Assembly: GCA_017539645.1 (NCBI GenBank)
Contig: JAFYCM010000018.1
Location: 1-37,292, forward strand
Source: Bacteroidales bacterium
GTDB taxonomy: Bacteria > Bacteroidota > Bacteroidia > Bacteroidales > Marinilabiliaceae
Direction of reading: 5' to 3'
DNA: 37,292 nt
Under the pieces are notes generated by a model that ran no database searches, was not told where the DNA came from, and saw only the letters and a list, made by a program, of their open reading frames with translations. Numbering within the stretch: the stretch's first letter is position 1; every line of letters starts with the position of its first letter. Of this stretch, positions 19,985-30,728 are shown piece after piece. Both the position numbers and the translations under genes were made by a program.

Positions 19985-20285
19985 ATTGTAAATTTTCACA
20001 TTTAGCTAAATGAATTTCTCCTGATGCGACATTGGGGAGGCGATTGTTTGCGTTTTTTATAATTATGTGTGAATTGTGATAATTTTATGTTGTTTGTGTG
20101 TTTTATATATAATGATTGCGTCGTTCCAAATACACTTATTTACACTTTGAATGACTATAGTGAACATTCCCAAAACTTGGTTAAACATCTATAATACTGG
20201 GTTCTAAACGATTGTTTTTTCGTCTCTTTTTTTTGAGATTGCAACCAGAAAGAACGCAATAAAAACAAACACAAATAATATAATT
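19985..20285. other. Intergenic region before the methyl-accepting protein gene
   Basis: About 300 bp, AT-rich, with no convincing coding sequence. It must contain the promoter of the downstream gene, but I could not identify a TAnnTTTG element with a good partner. No strong hairpin or repeat is seen. Confidence 0.5.
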
Positions 20286-22127
20286 ATGGAAAATACGCAA
20301 TTTATCAAAAGGGTTAGAGACAAATTCAGAGTTAGTCTTTTGGCAAAAATCTCTTTGTCTATTGTCTTGTTTTTTGTGGTCATTGTCGCTTCGAACATCT
20401 TTGAAGTGTCATTCGTTTGTAAGAAAGTATTAGGTGATTATTTCGAGAATCAAATGCATGAGAAGATTGCATCGCACGAAGCTGTAACCCAGAAATCGTT
20501 GATGGAGTTAAATGCTTTCGTTGCGCAGATGCCAATCGTATTCCCTGAGCTTGGTAAAAAAATAGCCGAATCTGATTACGACTATATTGTGAATACTGCT
20601 AAGCAAACAGCATCGCTCATGAAGAACGATGGTTATGTAATCACCGATGCGATAGGCAACATCAAATACAACTCGTATCAGACCAAATGCACCAGAAAGC
20701 AGCTCACGGAGTTTGGCGACTTTGTAGATTGGCTCTGCGTACAAGAGGATTTGGTGTACAACGGCTACGTAAATTTCCTCGATCAAGGTATTTGCCTTGT
20801 TACAGCGCACGCTTTGCCCGATATGACTACAGGCGAAGTGAAGGGTACATTTATTGTTGTGCAGCAGCGCGCATTCGACAACGACTATTTGAAGGACAAT
20901 AGCGAGATGCTTCAACTTTCAGGTCAGACTATATACGAAGGCACTACACTTATGGGCTCGAGTGTGTTTGCCGGACAAGAGACTGTGCACATGGAGATTA
21001 GCGATTACAATCTTGCCGATTCGGTCTATCAGCAGAAAAAAGTTATGCTTACCGTCGAAGATTATGGTAAGGAAACCTATTTCTCTGCATATTCACCTAT
21101 TATCGGCTACACTGGCGATGTGATAGGTATATCGAATATGGCTGAAGATGTTTCAGTTATGAATAGCATTGTTAAGACTATTGGCACTACGGTGCTTTTG
21201 TTTGCGCTTCTTATAGGTGCTGTGCTCTTAAGCTTCATGATTCGTTTCTTCCGCAAGAATATTACGCAATACATAAAGCAAGTTACGCAGACCGTACGTA
21301 GCATTGCCGATGGCAACTTGACCGAAGATGTGCTTCAGCCAAATACTGGCGATGAAATAGCTCAACTCTGCAAAGGTGTGCGCGATATGCAGAAATCGCT
21401 CTCAGATACCATTTTGTCAATATCGCAAACTGCCGATTTGTTGCACTCGTCGAGCGAAGGTTTGAGCAAGTCGTCGTTTCAACTATCGGATGGTGCTACC
21501 AAGCAAGCTTCATCGCTCGAGCAGATTTCTTCATCGCTCCAACAGATGGCAAGTAATATCCACCTCAACAAAGACAACGCTTGCCTCACCGAACAGCAGA
21601 TGGCTGCAGCCGACGATGCTGTGCAACGTATTGCCGATTCTGCAAGCGATAGTATGAACGAAACGCAGCGCATTGCTACATCAATTGCCGCTATCAACGA
21701 ACTCGTGAGCCAGACTAATATATTGAGTCTCAATGCATCAGTAGAGGCTGCCCGTGCAGGTAATATGGGTAAAGGCTTCGGTGTGGTAGCTCGCGAGGTT
21801 GGCCGTTTGGCAGAGCAGACCAAGATTACGGCTTCTGATATTTCCGAAAAGGCTGGCAAATCAATCGTTGGTGCTCAGAACATAAATAGCTTGCTCGATG
21901 AGGTGTCTCCTCAATTGCACAAGGTATCGGCTCTCGTGAAAGAGATAGCTGTTTCGAGCCAAGAGCAGAGCATCGGTGCTGACCAGATAAATATTGCTGT
22001 GCTCGACCTCAACAATGTTACTCAGGAGACCGCTCTCAGTGCAAAACACATCGCAAGCAATGCCGACGAACTCTCGTTGACATCTGAAAAATTGAGGCAG
22101 ATTGTCTCAACCTTCAAGTTGGCATAA
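20286..22127 (+). CDS. Transmembrane methyl-accepting (chemotaxis-type) protein
   Basis: A 613-residue protein with a first helix at about 17-43, a periplasmic Cache-like sensor (about 44-295), a second helix (about 298-321), a HAMP segment ([21 protein letters not shown]-like, from about 322) and a long cytoplasmic coiled coil. The hairpin tip [18 protein letters not shown] then [20 protein letters not shown] (about 474-512) is the conserved CheA/CheW-binding region, so it should signal to a kinase. No cheA, cheW, cheR or motility gene is in the window. Non-flagellated Bacteroidales may use such receptors for other outputs. Its sensor is related to the truncated protein at the left edge. A strong hairpin follows the gene. 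Confidence 0.92.
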
Positions 22128-22166
22128 AACACCCACGCGTACTTCATATATACAATTACATACGTT

Positions 22167-22212
22167 CAAACAACCATTGTGGCTTCGCTGCCGCAGTGGT
22201 TGTTTGCTTTTT
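22167..22212 (+). terminator. Terminator of the methyl-accepting protein gene
   Basis: CAAACAACCATTG (22167-22179) pairs with CAGTGGTTGTTTG (22194-22206) with one G-T pair, followed by a T run. It lies 40 bp after the stop. Confidence 0.88.
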
Positions 22213-22292
22213 ATATATGATCATATTTTCAATTTTCCTGTGCCACTATTTAGCACACATTTATCTTTTCTTTGCATAAAAACTATACGATT

Positions 22293-23222
22293 ATGGCTAC
22301 AAACGACTCTGGACAAGGAATTTTGAACAAGTTGATATGGTTGGTAGATACCATCAAACGCAAGAAGAAGATCACGTTCAAGGAACTAAACAACTTGTGG
22401 TGTCAAAACGTGGAGATGAGCGGCGGCGTGTATTTGCCAAAGCGCACGTTCTACAACTGGATAACGCAAATAGCAGATATGTTTGGAATCGTCATTGCCA
22501 ACGAGCGCTGCGGCATGTATCGCTATTATATTGAAAATGAAGATTCTATTGGCCGTGATGATTTGCGCAAATGGCTTTTCGATACGTTTAGCACAAGTTG
22601 TGCGTTGTCGAATTGCTTGAGCGTGAAAGAGCGCATTATGCTCGAAAATATTCCTTCGGGGCTGCAGTTTCTAAAGCCTATTATCGATGCCATGAAGGAG
22701 AACAGAGTGCTCCGCATTACCTATCATGGCTATTGGAGGCAAGAAGAAAACACATTCGATGTGCAGCCCTATTGTGTGAAGTTGTTTCGCCAACGCTGGT
22801 ATATGGTGGCTATGAGTGCCTTCACAGATCCGCGCATCTACGCCCTCGACCGCATTGTCAATCTGTGTGCTACGGACGAGACTTTTGAGATGCCTAAAGA
22901 TTGGAGCGCAGAGGAGTTTTTCTATGGTTGCTTCGGTGTTATAGCAGATAAAGTTGATGACATTCAGACGGTAAAAATAAAGGCCTACGGCAATCAGGTT
23001 TACTACATACGCGGACTGCCGTTGCATCCATCACAGCAAGAGACGAAGCGCACCGACGAGTATAGCATCTTCACCTACCACCTCCGTCCGACATACGATT
23101 TCATTCAAGAACTCCTCTGGCATGCCAATACGATAGAAGTGCTTGAACCGCTTAGCTTGCGCGAGAAAATGATGACTACACTTGATAGTATGCGAAGTAG
23201 GTATGACGAAAGAGGAAAATGA
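22293..23222 (+). CDS. WYL-domain transcriptional regulator
   Basis: A 309-residue protein starting at the ATG at 22293 (MATNDSGQGILNKL); an upstream TTG start is less likely. The N-terminal part (about 8-80) is a winged-helix-like DNA-binding region (KKITFKELNNLW, RTFYNWITQIADMFG). The WYL domain (about 130-235) has RQRWYMVAMS with W169-Y170-M171 in place of W-Y-L, followed by RIYALDRI. A C-terminal WCX-like extension follows. WYL regulators bind nucleic-acid-derived ligands and often control phage-defence genes. It precedes the PLD-like gene by 40 bp on the same strand and probably forms a unit with it. Confidence 0.9.
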   Translation: MATNDSGQGILNKLIWLVDTIKRKKKITFKELNNLWCQNVEMSGGVYLPKRTFYNWITQIADMFGIVIANERCGMYRYYIENEDSIGRDDLRKWLFDTFSTSCALSNCLSVKERIMLENIPSGLQFLKPIIDAMKENRVLRITYHGYWRQEENTFDVQPYCVKLFRQRWYMVAMSAFTDPRIYALDRIVNLCATDETFEMPKDWSAEEFFYGCFGVIADKVDDIQTVKIKAYGNQVYYIRGLPLHPSQQETKRTDEYSIFTYHLRPTYDFIQELLWHANTIEVLEPLSLREKMMTTLDSMRSRYDERGK

Positions 23223-23262
23223 GGGATAAAACCTATATAGAAATTAATTAGTTCAAATAGCT

Positions 23263-23775
23263 ATGCTCACCTATATCTCCAATACCGACCACTACAAAGA
23301 GGTGCTTGCGCGGGTGCAATCCGTGAAGCATTTCCTTTGGATTGGCACGGCCGACATCAAAGACCTATATATTAAGAGCGGTTCGAGTACCGTGTCGTTT
23401 TTGGGCGTGCTGGCGCAACTCATCAAGCGTGGTGTGGAAGTGCGGCTCATACATGCCAAAGAACCTGGTCCGAATTTCCGCGAAGATTTTGATAAATACC
23501 CCGAGTTGTTTGGTGGATTGGAGCGCGTGCTTTGTCCGCGAGTGCACTTCAAAATGATGGTTTTCGATGGTGAAACTATATATGTAGGCAGTGCAAATCT
23601 CACGGGCGCGGGCATAGGTATGAAGGGCGCCAACAAACGCAACTTCGAGGCTGGCATCCTTACCGATATGCCCGAAATGGTTGACAGTGCCATGGCGCAG
23701 TTCGATGAGGTATGGATAGGTAAACATTGCAAATCGTGCCTCCGCCGTGACTTCTGTGCCGATCCGATAAAATAG
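23263..23775 (+). CDS. PLD-superfamily protein with a single HKD motif
   Basis: A 170-residue protein. The HKD signature is H95-F-K97 with D102 in VHFKMMVFDG, followed by GSANLTG (109-115). One motif per chain is the arrangement of Nuc- or BfiI-like PLD nucleases, which dimerise to build the active site. The C-terminus has three cysteines (C156, C159, C165 in CKSCLRRDFC), a possible metal site. It is cytoplasmic, with no signal peptide. The close upstream WYL gene and the downstream ATPase and DUF262 genes suggest a nuclease role in defence. Phospholipase activity is less likely for this size and context. Confidence 0.85.
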   Translation: MLTYISNTDHYKEVLARVQSVKHFLWIGTADIKDLYIKSGSSTVSFLGVLAQLIKRGVEVRLIHAKEPGPNFREDFDKYPELFGGLERVLCPRVHFKMMVFDGETIYVGSANLTGAGIGMKGANKRNFEAGILTDMPEMVDSAMAQFDEVWIGKHCKSCLRRDFCADPIK

Positions 23776-23802
23776 AGAAGTGTAAATCCGAGTTTTTTCA
23801 AA

Positions 23803-23851
23803 TTTTCTCCAGACCTGTGCTGCTCGTTGGCACAGGTCTGTTTTTGTTTTG
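23803..23851 (+). terminator. Intrinsic terminator, copy 1 of a 49-bp repeat
   Basis: CAGACCTGTGC and GCACAGGTCTG form a perfect 11-bp stem with a 9-nt loop, followed by TTTTTGTTTTG. It ends transcription of the WYL-PLD pair. The 49 bp match 29506-29554 except at two loop positions (CG here, TA there). Confidence 0.93.
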
Positions 23852-23878
23852 CACTATAATAACTAAAGACTATGTGTT

Positions 23879-25525
23879 ATGGCAACAACAAAGACGATGG
23901 ATTTGCTCTCGGCTATGGAGCAGATTGTGGACAAGGCTAAAGGCTCTGGACTTAGCAGCGATTTCTTTCGTAAGGCTAATACGTACATAAAATACGTATC
24001 TGAAAAGTTGGAGCTCACCAAGGAACAGAGTGTGCTGATGGCGCTATTTGTAGATAATTGTAATAACAGAAAAATCGACCTTAGCGACATCAGTAAATAT
24101 CTCGAATGCCGCAATACCAGACTTCTCAGATATATGACCGACGTTGACGAACTCGAAAAGAGAGAACTTATTAGATGCCGTCATGAGGATGAAAATACCT
24201 ACTCTGTACCCCAAGAAGTTATTGATGCATTCAAAAACAATAAAAAATATTGTCCTAAGGATTATCATGGGCTTTCGTGTCGTCAACTGTTTAGTGAACT
24301 CATTTCTCTTTTTGACTTGCGTGAAGATAAAATGCTGACCTACGAAGCTTTAGTCAGAAGAATTCACCGCCTATTCGACTGCAACAGACATTTGCTATAC
24401 GTCCAAAAAGTGAAGAGCTACGCTTTTATGGAAAGCGACGAAATGATGCTAATACTCTTTTCTCACTTATTCGTAAATAATAATGATGACAACATAGGCT
24501 TTCACGACCTCGATTTCCTTTATGATGAACACTTTCAATGGTCTGTTGCTAAGTATGGCCTTGGCGATGGTGATCATTCGCTTATGGAGGCAGGAATCAT
24601 AGAATACAACAATGCAAATGGCATGGTAGATAGAGAATCGTTCCGTATGACATTCAATGCAAAGAGAGAACTATTTGCCGAACTCAATCTCGCTTCTGCT
24701 TATCAGCGTCAGATGCGTGGCGATGTGGTGAAAGTTGAGAATATCACACCTAAAAAACTATTCTACGGCGAAAAAGTCAGCGCGCAAATTGCAGAATTGG
24801 GCAACTTGTTGAACGATGCCCAATACAAACAGATATGTGCGCGCATGAAAGAGGCAGGTTTCCGGTGCGGATTTACATGCCTGTTCTATGGTGAGCCTGG
24901 CACGGGCAAGACGGAAACCGTGCTCCAATTGGCACGGCAAACTGGGCGCAACATTCTGCAAGTAAATATTTCGCAAATAAGAAGTATGTGGGTGGGCGAG
25001 AGCGAGAAGAACATTAAGCAAGTGTTCGACACCTATCGAACGCAAGTGAACGAGTGCGAAATTGCGCCTATTCTGCTTTTCAACGAGGCCGACGCTGTTA
25101 TTAGCACCAGAAAAGAGGGCATTAACGATGCGGTTAACAAGATGGAAAACACCATTCAAAACATCATTCTTCAAGAGATGGAAACGCTCGACGGAATACT
25201 TATAGCTACAACGAACCTTGCGCAGAATATGGATGGCGCTTTCGAACGCCGATTCCTCTATAAAATCAAGTTCGAGAAACCAACTACAGAGGCTCGTATG
25301 AACATGTGGCGCGAAATGATTCCCTCGCTGGATGGCGACACGGCAACACGCTTGGCAAATAAATACGACTTCAGTGGCGGACAGATTGAAAACATTGCAC
25401 GTCACTACACCATTGGCAACATCTTGCACGGCGAGCCTCAAAACATTGCCGATAGGCTCAGCGAATATTGTGACGGTGAGCGACTTGAATCGCGCGAAAC
25501 AAGCAGAATAGGTTTCGGAAAGTAG
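23879..25525 (+). CDS. AAA+ ATPase with N-terminal winged-helix-like region
   Basis: A 548-residue cytoplasmic protein. Residues 1-270 are helical with winged-helix-like features (DLSDISKYLECRNTRLLRYMTDVDELEKRELI) and no recognised domain. The AAA+ core has Walker A GEPGTGKT (338-345), the pore-loop-like MWVGESEKN (370-378), Walker B ILLFNEADA (398-406), sensor-1 IATTN (442-446) and the arginine-finger FERRF (455-459). The Walker B aspartate is replaced by Asn (FNEAD), a variant found in a group of bacterial AAA proteins; E402 is kept, so hydrolysis is still possible. It lies 52 bp before the paired DUF262 genes and behind a terminator, so those three genes form one block. Confidence 0.9.
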   Translation: MATTKTMDLLSAMEQIVDKAKGSGLSSDFFRKANTYIKYVSEKLELTKEQSVLMALFVDNCNNRKIDLSDISKYLECRNTRLLRYMTDVDELEKRELIRCRHEDENTYSVPQEVIDAFKNNKKYCPKDYHGLSCRQLFSELISLFDLREDKMLTYEALVRRIHRLFDCNRHLLYVQKVKSYAFMESDEMMLILFSHLFVNNNDDNIGFHDLDFLYDEHFQWSVAKYGLGDGDHSLMEAGIIEYNNANGMVDRESFRMTFNAKRELFAELNLASAYQRQMRGDVVKVENITPKKLFYGEKVSAQIAELGNLLNDAQYKQICARMKEAGFRCGFTCLFYGEPGTGKTETVLQLARQTGRNILQVNISQIRSMWVGESEKNIKQVFDTYRTQVNECEIAPILLFNEADAVISTRKEGINDAVNKMENTIQNIILQEMETLDGILIATTNLAQNMDGAFERRFLYKIKFEKPTTEARMNMWREMIPSLDGDTATRLANKYDFSGGQIENIARHYTIGNILHGEPQNIADRLSEYCDGERLESRETSRIGFGK

Positions 25526-25577
25526 TATGCTTTCGCAAGAATGATATATTTGTGTTCAACTAAAACATATACGAAAT

Positions 25578-27203
25578 ATGACAGAAATACTAAAACCTGT
25601 TAGCAAGCTTCTGGGCATGAAGTTCTTTATACCATCGTATCAACGAGGATATAGATGGACAGAATCTCAAATCACTGCGTTGTTGAATGACATTTGCACT
25701 TTCGATAAATCAAAAGATGGCGAATTTTATTGTCTACAACCTTTGGTTGTGAAATATGATGATAATAAATGGCATGTAATTGATGGGCAACAACGACTTA
25801 CCACAATCTATTTGATTCTAAAAGTCCTTGGCGACAAGAATCCATTTGAACTTGAATATGAGCGAGATTCATATATCAAATGTTTAGATGTTTGTGATGG
25901 CGTATGTACAGATAATATTGAAATTTTCCATTTAACAACAGCAAGAGAAATCATCAAAGATTGGCTAGATAAGAAATTGACCGATGAACAGAAAGAGTCG
26001 TTGAAAAGCAAGTTAATGGATCAAACAAAATTCATTTTCTACAATGTTGGTGCGCTATGCGACTATGCAGAGCATGACCTTTTCAACAATCTGAACTCAG
26101 GTAAAATTGCTCTGACCAATGCGGAACTTATCAAAGCGTTATTTCTCAACAAAGTTGGAAACGAAGATGTAGTGCACAGAGAAGTCGAACAACGATTGTT
26201 AGCTGATGAATTTGACCAAATAGAAAGGACCTTGCGTCAAGACGATTTTTGGTATTTTCTGGCTGGCAATACAACCAAAACTCCTTCGTGTATAAATCTA
26301 TTGTTTGAATTGATGTTTGAAGCAGATGAAAAGGTTGACAAGAAAAAATATCCTGAATACGAGAGATTCAGAACATTTTTCTACTTCAACGACCTAATCA
26401 ATGCAAATAGAGAAAAATCATATAGTAAGTCAAAAGATTTGTGGGAAGAAGTTAGACGTGTTTTCCATGTTATGGAAGGTTGGTTCAATGATTCTGTTAT
26501 GTATAACCTTATCGGTTATCATAGGGCAGTAAATAGGAAATCGTTGGCAGATATATTCACGAAATTCAATAATTCGAAATCAAAGCATGAATTCAAAGAT
26601 TGGCTAAAGGAAGAATGTAAAGAATACATAAGCTATCCTGATGAATTTATGAATCTACGCTATGATACCAACAAATCAGAAGTGCTCAATTTGTTGCTAT
26701 TATTCAACATCGCTACACTGCTCAAGAAACCACAAGAACATGTAAAGTTCTCTTTTGCGAGCTTTCACAACTACAAGTGGGACGTAGAACACATCTCGCC
26801 TCAGAATCCCAAGGACATTGAAGCAATCAAACAGAAATTGAGAGATTGTAATTCTAACCACATATTCGATTCTTTACTGCAAAAGGATGTGGTTGACGAA
26901 GAAATGAACAAATTCTTCGCTGATGATGACGAGTTGATGGGGCTCGGCAATTTGACATTATTGACCGCACACGACAATCGAGGCATAGGTAATAAATTCT
27001 TCTTTGAGAAAAGGAATAAACTTCAAGAATATTATCAAGATGGAAGTTTCATACCAACATGTAGTTTGAATGTATTCTTGAAATTCTATACCGAAGAGCC
27101 TGACCAAATGCTGTTTTGGGATGAAAATGATAGAAAAGACTATACACAAGAGATAAAGAGTAAAATCACAGATTTTTTTGAATCAAAACCTGAACAACTA
27201 TGA
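25578..27203 (+). CDS. GmrSD-like DUF262-DUF1524 nuclease
   Basis: A 541-residue protein. The N-terminal DUF262 (ParB/Srx-like, NTP-binding) domain has FIPSYQRGYRW (17-27) and IDGQQRLTT (68-76), the DGQQR motif needed for nucleotide binding and hydrolysis. The C-terminal DUF1524 domain is of the HNH type: WDVEHISPQNP near residue 400-410 (H-I-x-P) and GLGNLTLLTAHDNRGIGNKFFFEKR near 455-480. This is the layout of fused GmrSD type IV restriction enzymes, which cut modified (for example glucosylated hydroxymethylcytosine) phage DNA. Its stop overlaps the start of the second DUF262 gene by 4 bp. Base composition is more AT-rich than the housekeeping genes nearby, consistent with transfer. Confidence 0.92.
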   Translation: MTEILKPVSKLLGMKFFIPSYQRGYRWTESQITALLNDICTFDKSKDGEFYCLQPLVVKYDDNKWHVIDGQQRLTTIYLILKVLGDKNPFELEYERDSYIKCLDVCDGVCTDNIEIFHLTTAREIIKDWLDKKLTDEQKESLKSKLMDQTKFIFYNVGALCDYAEHDLFNNLNSGKIALTNAELIKALFLNKVGNEDVVHREVEQRLLADEFDQIERTLRQDDFWYFLAGNTTKTPSCINLLFELMFEADEKVDKKKYPEYERFRTFFYFNDLINANREKSYSKSKDLWEEVRRVFHVMEGWFNDSVMYNLIGYHRAVNRKSLADIFTKFNNSKSKHEFKDWLKEECKEYISYPDEFMNLRYDTNKSEVLNLLLLFNIATLLKKPQEHVKFSFASFHNYKWDVEHISPQNPKDIEAIKQKLRDCNSNHIFDSLLQKDVVDEEMNKFFADDDELMGLGNLTLLTAHDNRGIGNKFFFEKRNKLQEYYQDGSFIPTCSLNVFLKFYTEEPDQMLFWDENDRKDYTQEIKSKITDFFESKPEQL

Positions 27204-29482
27204 GCAACGATAACACTACAAACAGCTTTGAGGAATTGACATTTCCCTCTTTGTTGAATAAATATGATAGGATTCTTGTACCCATGATTCAAAGGGATTA
27301 TGCTCAAGGCAGAACCGACAAGAAAGCACAAGAAGTTCGAACAAACATCTTGAATGACATTTTTGATAAAGAAAGTGTTCACTTCGATTTGATATTTGGG
27401 TCATGTGAAAAGAGAAATGAAAACGATGGCGAAAAATTCTGCTTTGTCCCCGTCGATGGTCAACAACGATTGACAACTCTATTCCTTTTGTTCTTATATG
27501 CCAAGAAAGTAAAAGGTTTGTGGAACGATTTGAATTTGTCAAAATTCAACTATGATACTCGCCGTGCCGCTGCCGATTTCTGTAAGAAAGTAGCAACAGA
27601 AGAATGGAATGTAAGCAATGGGAAAGTATCTGATTCAATAAAGGATTCCGTGTGGTTTATGAATTATTGGGAGAATGACCCAACTGTGGCGGGAATGCTC
27701 AATATGTTGGATGACATTCACGAAAAAGCAAAAGTAAAAGTCTTTCCTGATCTTGACAACGTAACATTCTACTTCTTTGATTTAGAGTCAAATGGTCTGA
27801 ACGAGAATCTTTACTTGAAAATGAACTCTCGTGGCAAGCCGTTGACAGCTTTTGAAAATCTAAAAGCATCTATCGAAAAAGAATTGCCTGAAGGAGAATT
27901 TGCCAAGAATTGGAAGTATAATATGGATAGAGATTGGACGAATGCTTTTTGGAATAGTGAAAAACCTGAGGAGACCGACAAAAACATAACGGCATTTATT
28001 GTGCGTTTCTTATCAGGATATTGGAATGCTTTTATGGAGAATAGAGAAGACGATAAAATCGTGGCTGACAAATTGAAAGACATAAACGGCAAGGATAACT
28101 ATGCAGATTTTATTCCATTTGAGCCAATCAAAACAGTTTTGAACTATAAAAAGAATAAGAAAAAGGATGCTTTCATAAGATTGGAGGCCGCATTTGCATC
28201 TGTTTTGAATGTAGAAAAAATTAAGCCATCATGGAAGGAGAATATTACGAGCACAAATCTATCAGAATATAAGATTATAGCAGTTGTTTTTGCTTATGTC
28301 TTGTTTGATGGGAATACACAAGCAATGCGTGTCGCTTGGAATTTAGCGGAGAATACAGTTTCGGGATATGATAATTTCATCATTTATTGTAGGCGTATTG
28401 GAGAAATTTATCGATACATAGAGATCGAAAAGATTGATATATATCATGTCTTAGAAAGCAATGAACTCAAGTTCAATAATCCTTCAGCGCAGATGACTGA
28501 AGAAATAGCCAAAGCCAAACAAATTGTAAATGGAGGTGACGAATGGGAAACGAAAATCAAAGAAGCAGAAAAGAAATATTTCTTCAAAGGTGCGATTCGC
28601 TTCTTGTTTACAAAAGAAAACGTTGGGGATGATTGGGGTAACTTTGATACAAAATGGAATAATGCAACGAAGTATTTTGATGAGAATGGTGTAAAAGAGA
28701 AAACACCATACAAGACTAATGCCTTATTGATGAAATCACTATTGGCGAATTGTGATAATTTTTTGGGAAAGATTTGGTGGCATTTTGAATTTTCAAACGA
28801 CGCGATTCGTTGGAAACGCATACTCACCTCTAACAATTGGATAGCTGCAGTTGATGCAATAATGAGAGAGGAAGTAACAAATGAAACTATAGAAAAATGC
28901 GTTAAAAGCATTACTGAACACATAAAGAATACTGTTGATGGTAGCGAAGAAATGAAAAACCTATCATACATAAAGAATATTGTTGATGATGGATTGATGG
29001 ATTACGTTTGCAATAAAATGTCAGGAGCGTGGATTCGTAGTACATATCACGGTTACCACGCAATATGGATAAGGGGGTGCCCAGCAAGCCAAGTGGTTTT
29101 AAACCCAATTTTATCAAAGTTACAATTTGAGGGTAAAATCAGTTATAGAAATACCGAAGGGCGTGATAGTACAATTCCTAATTGTAGATATTATAGGTGC
29201 TTTGACAAAAATGTGGATTTTAAGTACAAATTCAACGATAAGTATTACTATTTCAATTGGTGGGGCAACCCTAATGAAACAGAATTAGATGTTTATTTGA
29301 CCGAGGATAATTGGAATGATTACAAAAAACGTCCGAATCCCCTAAGCGACAAAGGCACTGACGAAGATAAATATTATTGTTTTCGAGTAACACCAGATAT
29401 GGTAACACCAGATATGGAAAGTAACACATCTTTATTTATTGAAGAACTCGACCGGCTTATCGATGAAGCCTCCTCAAAATAG
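27200..29482 (+). CDS. DUF262 protein without nuclease domain (partner of the preceding gene)
   Basis: A 760-residue protein starting at ATG 27200, overlapping the previous stop (ATGA), so the two are translationally coupled. It has a DUF262 domain with VPMIQRDYAQGR (27-38) and VPVDGQQRLTTLF (83-95). The DGQQR loop is intact. The remaining 600 residues show no H-I-x-P motif or other nuclease signature. A long helical middle is followed by a Trp/Tyr-rich C-terminal region (HGYHAIWIRG, KYYYFNWWGNP) that could bind nucleic acid or another partner. The coding end has an exact in-frame 15-bp duplication (29387-29401, 29402-29416). A regulatory or sensor role toward the first protein is inferred. 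Confidence 0.88.
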   Translation: MSNDNTTNSFEELTFPSLLNKYDRILVPMIQRDYAQGRTDKKAQEVRTNILNDIFDKESVHFDLIFGSCEKRNENDGEKFCFVPVDGQQRLTTLFLLFLYAKKVKGLWNDLNLSKFNYDTRRAAADFCKKVATEEWNVSNGKVSDSIKDSVWFMNYWENDPTVAGMLNMLDDIHEKAKVKVFPDLDNVTFYFFDLESNGLNENLYLKMNSRGKPLTAFENLKASIEKELPEGEFAKNWKYNMDRDWTNAFWNSEKPEETDKNITAFIVRFLSGYWNAFMENREDDKIVADKLKDINGKDNYADFIPFEPIKTVLNYKKNKKKDAFIRLEAAFASVLNVEKIKPSWKENITSTNLSEYKIIAVVFAYVLFDGNTQAMRVAWNLAENTVSGYDNFIIYCRRIGEIYRYIEIEKIDIYHVLESNELKFNNPSAQMTEEIAKAKQIVNGGDEWETKIKEAEKKYFFKGAIRFLFTKENVGDDWGNFDTKWNNATKYFDENGVKEKTPYKTNALLMKSLLANCDNFLGKIWWHFEFSNDAIRWKRILTSNNWIAAVDAIMREEVTNETIEKCVKSITEHIKNTVDGSEEMKNLSYIKNIVDDGLMDYVCNKMSGAWIRSTYHGYHAIWIRGCPASQVVLNPILSKLQFEGKISYRNTEGRDSTIPNCRYYRCFDKNVDFKYKFNDKYYYFNWWGNPNETELDVYLTEDNWNDYKKRPNPLSDKGTDEDKYYCFRVTPDMVTPDMESNTSLFIEELDRLIDEASSK

Positions 29483-29505
29483 CTAATAGCATTACTCACC
29501 ATCAT

Positions 29506-29554
29506 TTTTCTCCAGACCTGTGCTGCTTATTGGCACAGGTCTGTTTTTGTTTTG
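29506..29554 (+). terminator. Intrinsic terminator, copy 2 of a 49-bp repeat
   Basis: Same 11-bp stem, loop and T-rich tail as 23803-23851 (47 of 49 bases identical). It ends the ATPase-DUF262-DUF262 block 23 bp after the last stop. After both copies a shared ATAACTAAA occurs within about 20 bp. Confidence 0.93.
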
Positions 29555-29579
29555 TTAGCGATAACTAAATAATAATGAT

Positions 29580-30728
29580 ATGAAGAAAGAAAAGGTTGAA
29601 GACATTATTATGTCAGCAGATTTCTCTGAGTACTCCAAAGAGTTTGATGGAGATGGAAATCTTATTGGTTTGAAAGGATACGTGTGTGATGCCAACAACA
29701 GAATAACACTTGAGGAAGAATACATATTGGACATAGAGTCGAACGAGTGGATAGGAACTGATAAGTACGAGCGTACCTACGATGCCCAAGGCAACATGAC
29801 TCTTGAAATAGAATACGATTGGAATAATAAGGTAAACGCATGGTTAGAAACTTGTCGAAATAAAAGTACCTACGATGCCCGCGGCAACGAGACGCTTAGG
29901 AAAACATACGAATGGCAATATAAGAGTAACGCGTTGATAGAATTGGTAGAAGTTCGTAAGATTGAACAAACCTACGATGCCCACGACAACATGACTCTTC
30001 GGGTAGATTACGATTGGGATGATGAGAAAGGCGAGTTGGTAGAATTTTCTAAAATCGAACAAACCTACGATGCCCACGACAACATGACACTTCGGGTAGA
30101 TTACGATTGGGATGAAGAGAAAGGCGAGTTGGTAGAAGTTTCTAAAATCGAACAAACCTACGATGTCCACGACAACATGACTCTTCGGGTAGATTACGAT
30201 TGGAATGATGAGAAAGGCGAGTTGATGCAGAGTTATAAATACAAATACACCTATGATGCCAACGGCAACGAGACGCTTTGTATGAGATTCCTTTGGTCTA
30301 GAGAAGCGAATGTATGGAATGAAGTTTATAAGCTCGAACAAACCTATGATGCCTATGACAACATAACTCTTCGGGTAGATTACGATTGGGATGATGAGAG
30401 TGGCGTGTTGATGAAGAGTTATAAATGCAAAAACACCTATGACGCCCAAGGCAATATGACGCTTTGTATAAAATTCCTTTGGCTTAGAGAAGCGAATATG
30501 TGGTCAGAATGTTATAAGGTCGAACATGCATACGACACCCTCGGCAACGAGATACTTATGACAGAATACGAAGGGGTTGATAATATGACATGGATAGAAA
30601 CATGTAAGTGCGAACGTACCTACGATGCTCTCGGCAACTTGACTCGTATAAAAGAATACTACTGGGACTTAGAAGATACAAACGCATGGATTCTCTGCTC
30701 AACTACAGAATACTACTATAGAAAATAA
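29580..30728 (+). CDS. YD-type tandem-repeat protein, no signal peptide
   Basis: A 382-residue protein made almost wholly of about eleven 31-34-residue units with the pattern TYDAxxNxTLRxxYDW, then a variable acidic part. Units near 29964, 30057 and 30150 are spaced exactly 93 bp apart and nearly identical in DNA, which indicates recent expansion. The N-terminus (MKKEKVEDIIMSADFSEYSKEF) is charged, with no signal peptide or membrane helix, so it should be cytoplasmic; related YD-repeat proteins are usually exported. It starts 25 bp after the second terminator copy. The function is unknown; binding a carbohydrate, a protein or phage component are possibilities only. Confidence 0.85.
   Translation: MKKEKVEDIIMSADFSEYSKEFDGDGNLIGLKGYVCDANNRITLEEEYILDIESNEWIGTDKYERTYDAQGNMTLEIEYDWNNKVNAWLETCRNKSTYDARGNETLRKTYEWQYKSNALIELVEVRKIEQTYDAHDNMTLRVDYDWDDEKGELVEFSKIEQTYDAHDNMTLRVDYDWDEEKGELVEVSKIEQTYDVHDNMTLRVDYDWNDEKGELMQSYKYKYTYDANGNETLCMRFLWSREANVWNEVYKLEQTYDAYDNITLRVDYDWDDESGVLMKSYKCKNTYDAQGNMTLCIKFLWLREANMWSECYKVEHAYDTLGNEILMTEYEGVDNMTWIETCKCERTYDALGNLTRIKEYYWDLEDTNAWILCSTTEYYYRK

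Follow-up and report, generated by a model that had tools for sequence, protein, structure and literature searches.

A 37,292-nucleotide stretch of DNA from a Bacteroidales bacterium of the Marinilabiliaceae (contig JAFYCM010000018.1, positions 1 to 37,292; this whole stretch is the window below) carries a defence-type gene island in which a 49-bp repeat stands both before and after a block of one AAA ATPase gene and two DUF262 genes. Our working hypothesis, to which we assign a probability of roughly 0.7, is that these repeats are joints that combine an operator for a WYL-family regulator with a promoter, that some of them double as terminators, and that they head gene modules and act as recombination boundaries. 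Specifically, in each 49-bp joint a palindrome would serve as operator of a WYL-family regulator, with the product of the gene at 22293-23222 being the most likely one; this operator would cover the -33 region, with a constant spacing to a -7 box, and transcription would start ~20 nt before the next start codon. At some joints between the tail of one gene and the head of the next, both of those in the window included, the palindrome may have been lengthened such that the RNA also terminates there and insulates the preceding module. Because neighbouring modules start with near-identical joints, homologous recombination between joints could add or remove whole modules, and each surviving module would keep its own regulated promoter. 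The elements at the centre of this proposal are the following.

23803..23851, plus strand: joint 1, with a hairpin at 23810-23840, the putative operator at 23816-23834 and a -7-like box at 23844-23851; it precedes the AAA gene
29506..29554, plus strand: joint 2, with a hairpin at 29513-29543, the putative operator at 29519-29537 and a -7-like box at 29547-29554; it precedes a DUF3836-type gene
22239..22275, plus strand: putative operator/promoter site of the WYL gene, with TGTGC-N9-GCACA at 22239-22257 and the -7-like box TTTCTTTG at 22267-22274; not terminator-like
22293..23222, plus strand: gene for a WYL-WCX regulator (Pfam WYL and WCX), with an in-frame TTG at 22272 as alternative start

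Both joints lie exactly where a preliminary description of this DNA had placed them; they are identical at 47 of 49 positions, and the two mismatches fall within the hairpin loop. The sequence that the same description reported to be shared after the repeat is likewise present, ATAACTAAA being found 3' of both window copies (offset by 1 base) and of two of the three copies in the congener G001. Searching the window's own genome (3,435,893 bases in 101 contigs, 97% complete) for more copies at up to 3 mismatches returned only these two. Of 71 genomes of the family and 393 of the order, the same two carry the 49-bp sequence, namely the window's own and G001. The many scattered copies of a generic terminator, raised earlier as a concern, are thus not what is seen, and with 2 of 393 order genomes carrying the sequence we set this explanation aside. 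As a control, we compared 84 within-locus pairs of terminator-like hairpins over 303 kb; identity above 70% was found only for pairs of the 49-bp copies within the window and within G001, and the next-best pair reached 68%. For all five copies (two in the window and three in G001), the distance from the preceding stop codon is 23-39 bp and that to the following start 24-37 bp. At one position, the window copies agree with each other against all G001 copies, which would suggest concerted evolution, but a single position is too little to claim it. A plasmid or phage origin of the repeat was rejected, with no match in either search and 0 exact matches in viral contigs. We also set aside, although not outright, an assembly artefact at the repeat; the longest exact run shared by the window copies is 25 bp, and G001 copies 1 and 2 share one of 33 bp.

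The joints belong to a wider family of sites. A degenerate third member at 22226-22274, 5' of the WYL gene, matches 63% of the 49 bp and has the same TGTGC-N9-GCACA and the same distance to TTTGC as the joints, but no terminator; the same geometry is found in the island of G011, 5' of its WYL gene and of another gene. In its general form, the family reads TGTGC-N9-GCACA-N9-TNNNTTTGC, i.e. a palindrome and a Bacteroidetes -7 box at constant spacing. Searching 16 loci (315 kb), chosen by AAA or PLD homology, for TGTGC-N9-GCACA-N13-TTTGC with up to 2 mismatches gave 23 sites, while 60 letter-shuffled motifs with the same gaps gave a mean of 0.52 sites and a maximum of 4. Twenty of the 23 sites lie at most 100 bp upstream of a same-strand start compared to a background of 4.3%; of the remaining three, one is the G001 site 5' of the truncated gene and the others are reverse readings of the palindrome. 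With the window and G001 left aside, 14 of 14 sites are upstream of a same-strand start. Open reading frames (ORFs) were called mechanically (ATG only, at least 60 aa, overlaps removed). Because the motif had been seen in the window, G001, G011:C47 and upstream of the WYL genes of G008, G009 and G010 before the pattern was fixed, the 16-locus count is partly non-independent of the motif definition; L023, L024, G011:C25, the other G010 sites and the order-wide tests described below came later. Sites can also serve both strands, as the seven sites of G010 do, with outward-pointing sites in divergent intergenic regions, and likewise in G009.

The -7-like box was analyzed in 52 sites, all selected to have a start no more than 120 bp away, so that this set is no test of placement; like the sites of the 20 genus stretches and of the hairpin comparison below, they were listed if they had at most 2 mismatches, or at most 3 where a start lay ~120 bp away or closer. 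A T four bases before TTTG, which was absent from the search pattern, is present in 50 of the 52 sites and completes TWnnTTTG; TA is found in the box in 27 of 52. According to the excerpted parts of a study of Bacteroides promoters, the -7 box of the -7/-33 consensus is TAnnTTTG and the commonest 5' untranslated region is 23 nt long (PMC7366714). TTTG does not occur in any of the 52 sites 15-25 bases before the -7 box, where the -33 element would lie.

Sites of this family are associated with WYL genes, and at ten loci a site stands 17-27 bp before one (the window, G001, G011, G010, G009, G008, L023 and G184 and, with 3 mismatches, G189 and G004:C55). As a test independent of WYL genes, we scanned the 393 order genomes for the motif extended by the additional T, allowing 1 mismatch, and obtained 103 matches versus 7 for the reversed pattern, spread over 67 genomes and 53 of 206 genera. 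Clusters defined by the motif alone (at least two sites within 10 kb) were found in nine genomes besides the window's own and G001; six of these nine clusters include a WYL gene (E no worse than 2e-23, searched in a small database) and three have PLD homologs with 54-73% identity. Because 15 genus genomes (~43 Mb) contain 23 WYL homologs, only ~0.01 WYL genes would be expected per stretch, although this estimate comes from a less sensitive search. Near another WYL gene (L144, G004:C43), the variant site TGTACC-N7-GGTACA occurs three times, which suggests that the operator letters may change with the regulator.

We compared this proposal with known regulators, each as described in excerpts of the cited papers. 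In the 316-aa reading of the window's WYL protein, Pfam WYL (133-198) and WCX (232-307) are present in one chain, while the N-terminal part, where a homodimeric, ssDNA-triggered activator of the DriD type would have a wHTH and a three-helix bundle, has no Pfam match and the best matches in the PDB span 133-297 only; its closest solved relatives include 7tzv, a structure of DriD (PMC12340889). DriD is a WYL activator of Caulobacter with the site ATACGAC-N7-GTCGTAT, which overlaps the -35 element at a constant distance from the -10 element in promoters with poor -35 elements (PMC12340889). The similarities are a WYL-WCX protein, a pseudopalindrome of ~20 bp with equal half-site spacing (TACGA-N9-TCGTA), a site over the -35 region at a fixed distance from the -10 element (here judged by layout of the sequence), and several promoters including one 5' of the regulator's own gene (PMC12340889). 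The half-site letters differ, and DriD serves the DNA-damage response (PMC12340889), whereas the predicted sites described here head defence-type modules in Bacteroidales and some are also hairpins and module boundaries. Given the shared half-site spacing and overlap with the -35 region, a DriD-like activator is attractive. BrxR, also a WYL regulator of defence islands, has inverted repeats 5' of both its own gene and the operon that follows (R-BOX1 and R-BOX2); however, these are 11-bp repeats with a 5-bp spacer, BrxR represses, only two boxes are present in that island, and the excerpted account describes no module-boundary role (PMC9122601). The best-populated geometry in our sites has 9 bp between 5-bp core arms and not the BrxR-type 5-bp spacer. 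We consider activation as by DriD and repression as by BrxR about equally probable. Finally, RptR, a repressor of a defence island, resembles the suggested system in that one regulator is dedicated to the island and has its sites repeated in the promoter, but its palindrome is TAGCTA and its sites are direct repeats in one promoter rather than one per module (PMC12255303).

An unlikely alternative, yet the one that survives best, is that the sites are the operator/promoter of some other regulator, or that the palindrome is recognised by an unusual sigma factor, with the WYL genes being mere co-residents of defence islands. The site clusters without a WYL gene in the stretch read and the lack of TTTG at -33 in all 52 sites fit this explanation, while the short distance to WYL genes at ten loci, the WYL genes in motif-only clusters and the DriD-type geometry argue for a WYL regulator.

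Next, we considered that the repeats might be plain intrinsic terminators serving as insulating ends of mobile modules, i.e. palindromes without a protein partner. On RNA folding, each window copy forms a 12-bp stem with a T-run behind it (-21.8 and -22.7 kcal/mol; z -3.9 and -4.7), and each of the two G001 modules ends with such a strong hairpin and T-run. This combination, which characterizes an intrinsic terminator, is present in both window copies and absent from most of the site family. Moreover, members of the family also precede WYL genes or lie between divergent genes, frequently with a weak hairpin, their distance to the -7 box is fixed, and the 24-37 bp between repeat and next start leave little room for another promoter 3' of a terminator. 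We therefore regard plain terminators as rather improbable. Hairpins of -15 kcal/mol or below are present in 12 of 29 tail-to-head sites and in none of 20 divergent sites, with contexts assigned by the mechanical ORF calls (Fisher p 0.0006; 0.011 without the five 49-bp copies). This distribution fits with an operator that has been lengthened to a terminator where the preceding module is to be insulated. A second case of a duplicated joint was found in G003, in which a 187-bp repeat (94.7% identity, copies 1.3 kb apart) contains a hairpin, an operator-like site and a gene start.

The suggested role of the joints as boundaries rests on the comparison with G001, for which the following features of the window are relevant.

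23263..23775, plus strand: short PLD-family protein, 170 aa (Pfam PLDc_2); 100% amino acid identity in G001
23879..25525, plus strand: AAA ATPase, 548 aa, with an IetA-like ATPase domain (Pfam AAA, PADLOC IetA); 92% amino acid identity in G001
25578..27203, plus strand: DUF262-DUF1524 (GmrSD N+C) protein, 541 aa; 31% amino acid identity to its G001 counterpart
27200..29482, plus strand: DUF262 (GmrSD_N) protein, 760 aa; similarity to G001 persists in the final part of the gene
29580..30728, plus strand: repeat protein with DUF3836/RHS-like matches; the match to G001, after its third joint, is confined to about the first 50 codons
21390..23790, no strand: tract mostly 95-100% identical to G001, with 69-90% upstream and its edge within the MCP gene

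In G001, the order is MCP, WYL, PLD, joint T1, a cassette of five genes (447, 910, 286, 542 and 145 aa), joint T2, AAA, DUF262, DUF262, joint T3 and ~50 codons of the DUF3836 gene, with a SusC-type polysaccharide-utilisation region downstream of this truncated gene. In the window, the order is PLD, joint, AAA, DUF262, DUF262, joint, i.e. one joint is present where G001 has T1, cassette and T2. The left flank of joint 1 corresponds to that of T1 and its right flank to that of T2, and the window is therefore the single-copy site for the G001 cassette. Because the cassette lies exactly between two joints in G001 and the window has one copy at this place, the repeats are module boundaries, and they would be so chiefly since each module has its own putative operator-promoter joint. 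The cassette may either have been lost in the window lineage by recombination between T1 and T2 or have been gained at the joint in G001. It comprises 7.5 kb and encodes an LPD1 protein, a Strawberry-notch-type helicase, an AAA-ATPase_like/PD-(D/E)XK protein and two proteins of unknown type; PADLOC gave no matches on it, and the second copy of the G003 repeat precedes homologs (72% and 81%) of its first two genes. The earlier suggestion that terminators are carried as cassette boundaries is thus borne out as to the boundaries by this cassette, but the label terminator is incomplete because the repeat looks mainly like a 5' operator/promoter with a geometry common to non-terminator sites.

The comparison does not support the idea that a terminator was the entry point of the 5.7-kb block. 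The block is common to both species, and the breakpoints at which its DUF262 pair was replaced lie elsewhere: the DUF262 proteins of the window and G001 are only 31% and 35% identical compared to 92% for AAA, and DNA similarity ends at ~25474 and resumes over 29227-29430, edges which argue that the pair was exchanged separately and not at the repeats. A one-time insertion of the block that duplicated its target and left the repeats as a scar would explain the direct repeat on both sides of the block. However, the three copies in G001 bound two modules, the repeat has relatives 5' of other genes, and the block-less site with a single copy that such an insertion predicts was seen in none of the 15 genus genomes, so that we consider this scenario improbable. 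Most improbable is an attenuator, in which the hairpin is part of the next gene's leader and allows conditional read-through: the hairpin is close to the start codon, but the conserved part is the palindrome plus the -7 box, which is kept even without a stable hairpin.

Several observations weigh against joints of WYL operator and promoter. No WYL gene was found in three of the nine motif-only cluster stretches or in the site-bearing stretches G011:C25, G009:C3 and G009:C67, and of the 23 genus WYL homologs only 6 are closely preceded by a site with at most 2 mismatches (7 with a 3-mismatch site included). The window copies have TT and not TA in the -7 box. Placement is weaker in 20 genus stretches picked from the genus match list, which is not the whole list (21 of 30 sites upstream, with two reverse readings left out), in G069 (3 of 6) and in the nine order-wide clusters (14 of 22, with five of the eight misses inside called ORFs); outside the first loci, placement is thus weaker, yet still far above the 4.3% background. 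At up to 2 mismatches, the genus gave 125 matches versus 45 for the control, and about a third of these matches are therefore chance. At up to 1 mismatch, the family gave 50 versus 8, but without the genus and G069 only 14 versus 7. Moreover, 17 of the 29 tail-to-head sites are without a strong hairpin, covariation between left and right half-sites outside the core is weak, and the comparison of species rests on one genome per species, with G001 being a metagenome-assembled genome.

The control of newly gained modules in defence islands is poorly understood. That WYL regulators can have operators in defence islands is already known; new, as far as the literature was searched, are operators that are multiplied as module joints and a cassette difference that ends at them, and among open-licence PMC papers we recognised no description of WYL operators as module boundaries in Bacteroidales. 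More tentatively, and with somewhat less than even odds, we speculate that defence modules in Bacteroidales share a plug-in standard, consisting of a joint of WYL operator and -7 box and a resident, possibly ssDNA-sensing WYL regulator, in which modules are exchanged by recombination within the joint itself. If so, a newly acquired module would at once be under the resident WYL regulator. An operator code with one site per module would allow WYL regulons in Bacteroidales to be predicted from sequence, and the joints would help to find unknown defence modules and give a concrete route of module exchange.

The island also differs between the two species in its surroundings. The position ~21390 in the MCP gene, where identity to G001 jumps from ~77% to ~98%, appears to be the edge of a recent inter-species exchange. 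In the window, the utilisation locus precedes the island (20094-30728) and the IMP dehydrogenase gene follows it, while in G001 (C17, C18) the island lies before the utilisation locus and the IMP dehydrogenase gene is on another contig; this different placement indicates that the island has moved. As to an integron cassette array, no integrase was among the Pfam matches of 17 window proteins, although no search was aimed at attC. We set aside that the block is carried by viruses, as viral contigs yielded no confirmed relative of the two DUF262 proteins or the helicase of G001.

Both DUF262 proteins have the DGQQR motif, and the first has PADLOC matches to Orf5, HEC-06 and SspE-like proteins. 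This 541-aa protein, a candidate restriction protein of the GmrSD type, a class that cleaves modified DNA, resembles DUF262-DUF1524 proteins of the GmrSD/BrxU/SspE type, as described in excerpts of PMC10952713, in combining GmrSD_N and GmrSD_C and in the DGQQR motif; in contrast to these, it is encoded alongside a second DUF262 protein and an AAA ATPase. A second AAA paralog (52%) in the same genome (L058, G000:C37:6536-8170) is without DUF262 partners, and its neighbours look groES/groEL-like by eye. In G010:C75 (L059/L088), a unit of a DUF262 pair, an AAA gene and a HAD-like gene (named by eye) is tandemly duplicated; the AAA (~87%) and HAD (98%) genes of the two units are alike in DNA, the DUF262 genes mostly differ, and one AAA gene is truncated. 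The DUF3836/RHS-like gene of the window contains ten tandem units at 29748-30665, mostly 93 bp apart. Elsewhere in the window, the 10-bp unit TGCATATATT forms a tandem run at 476-554, and two 52-bp stretches at 1410-1461 and 2082-2133, at the starts of two adjacent genes, are 94% identical.

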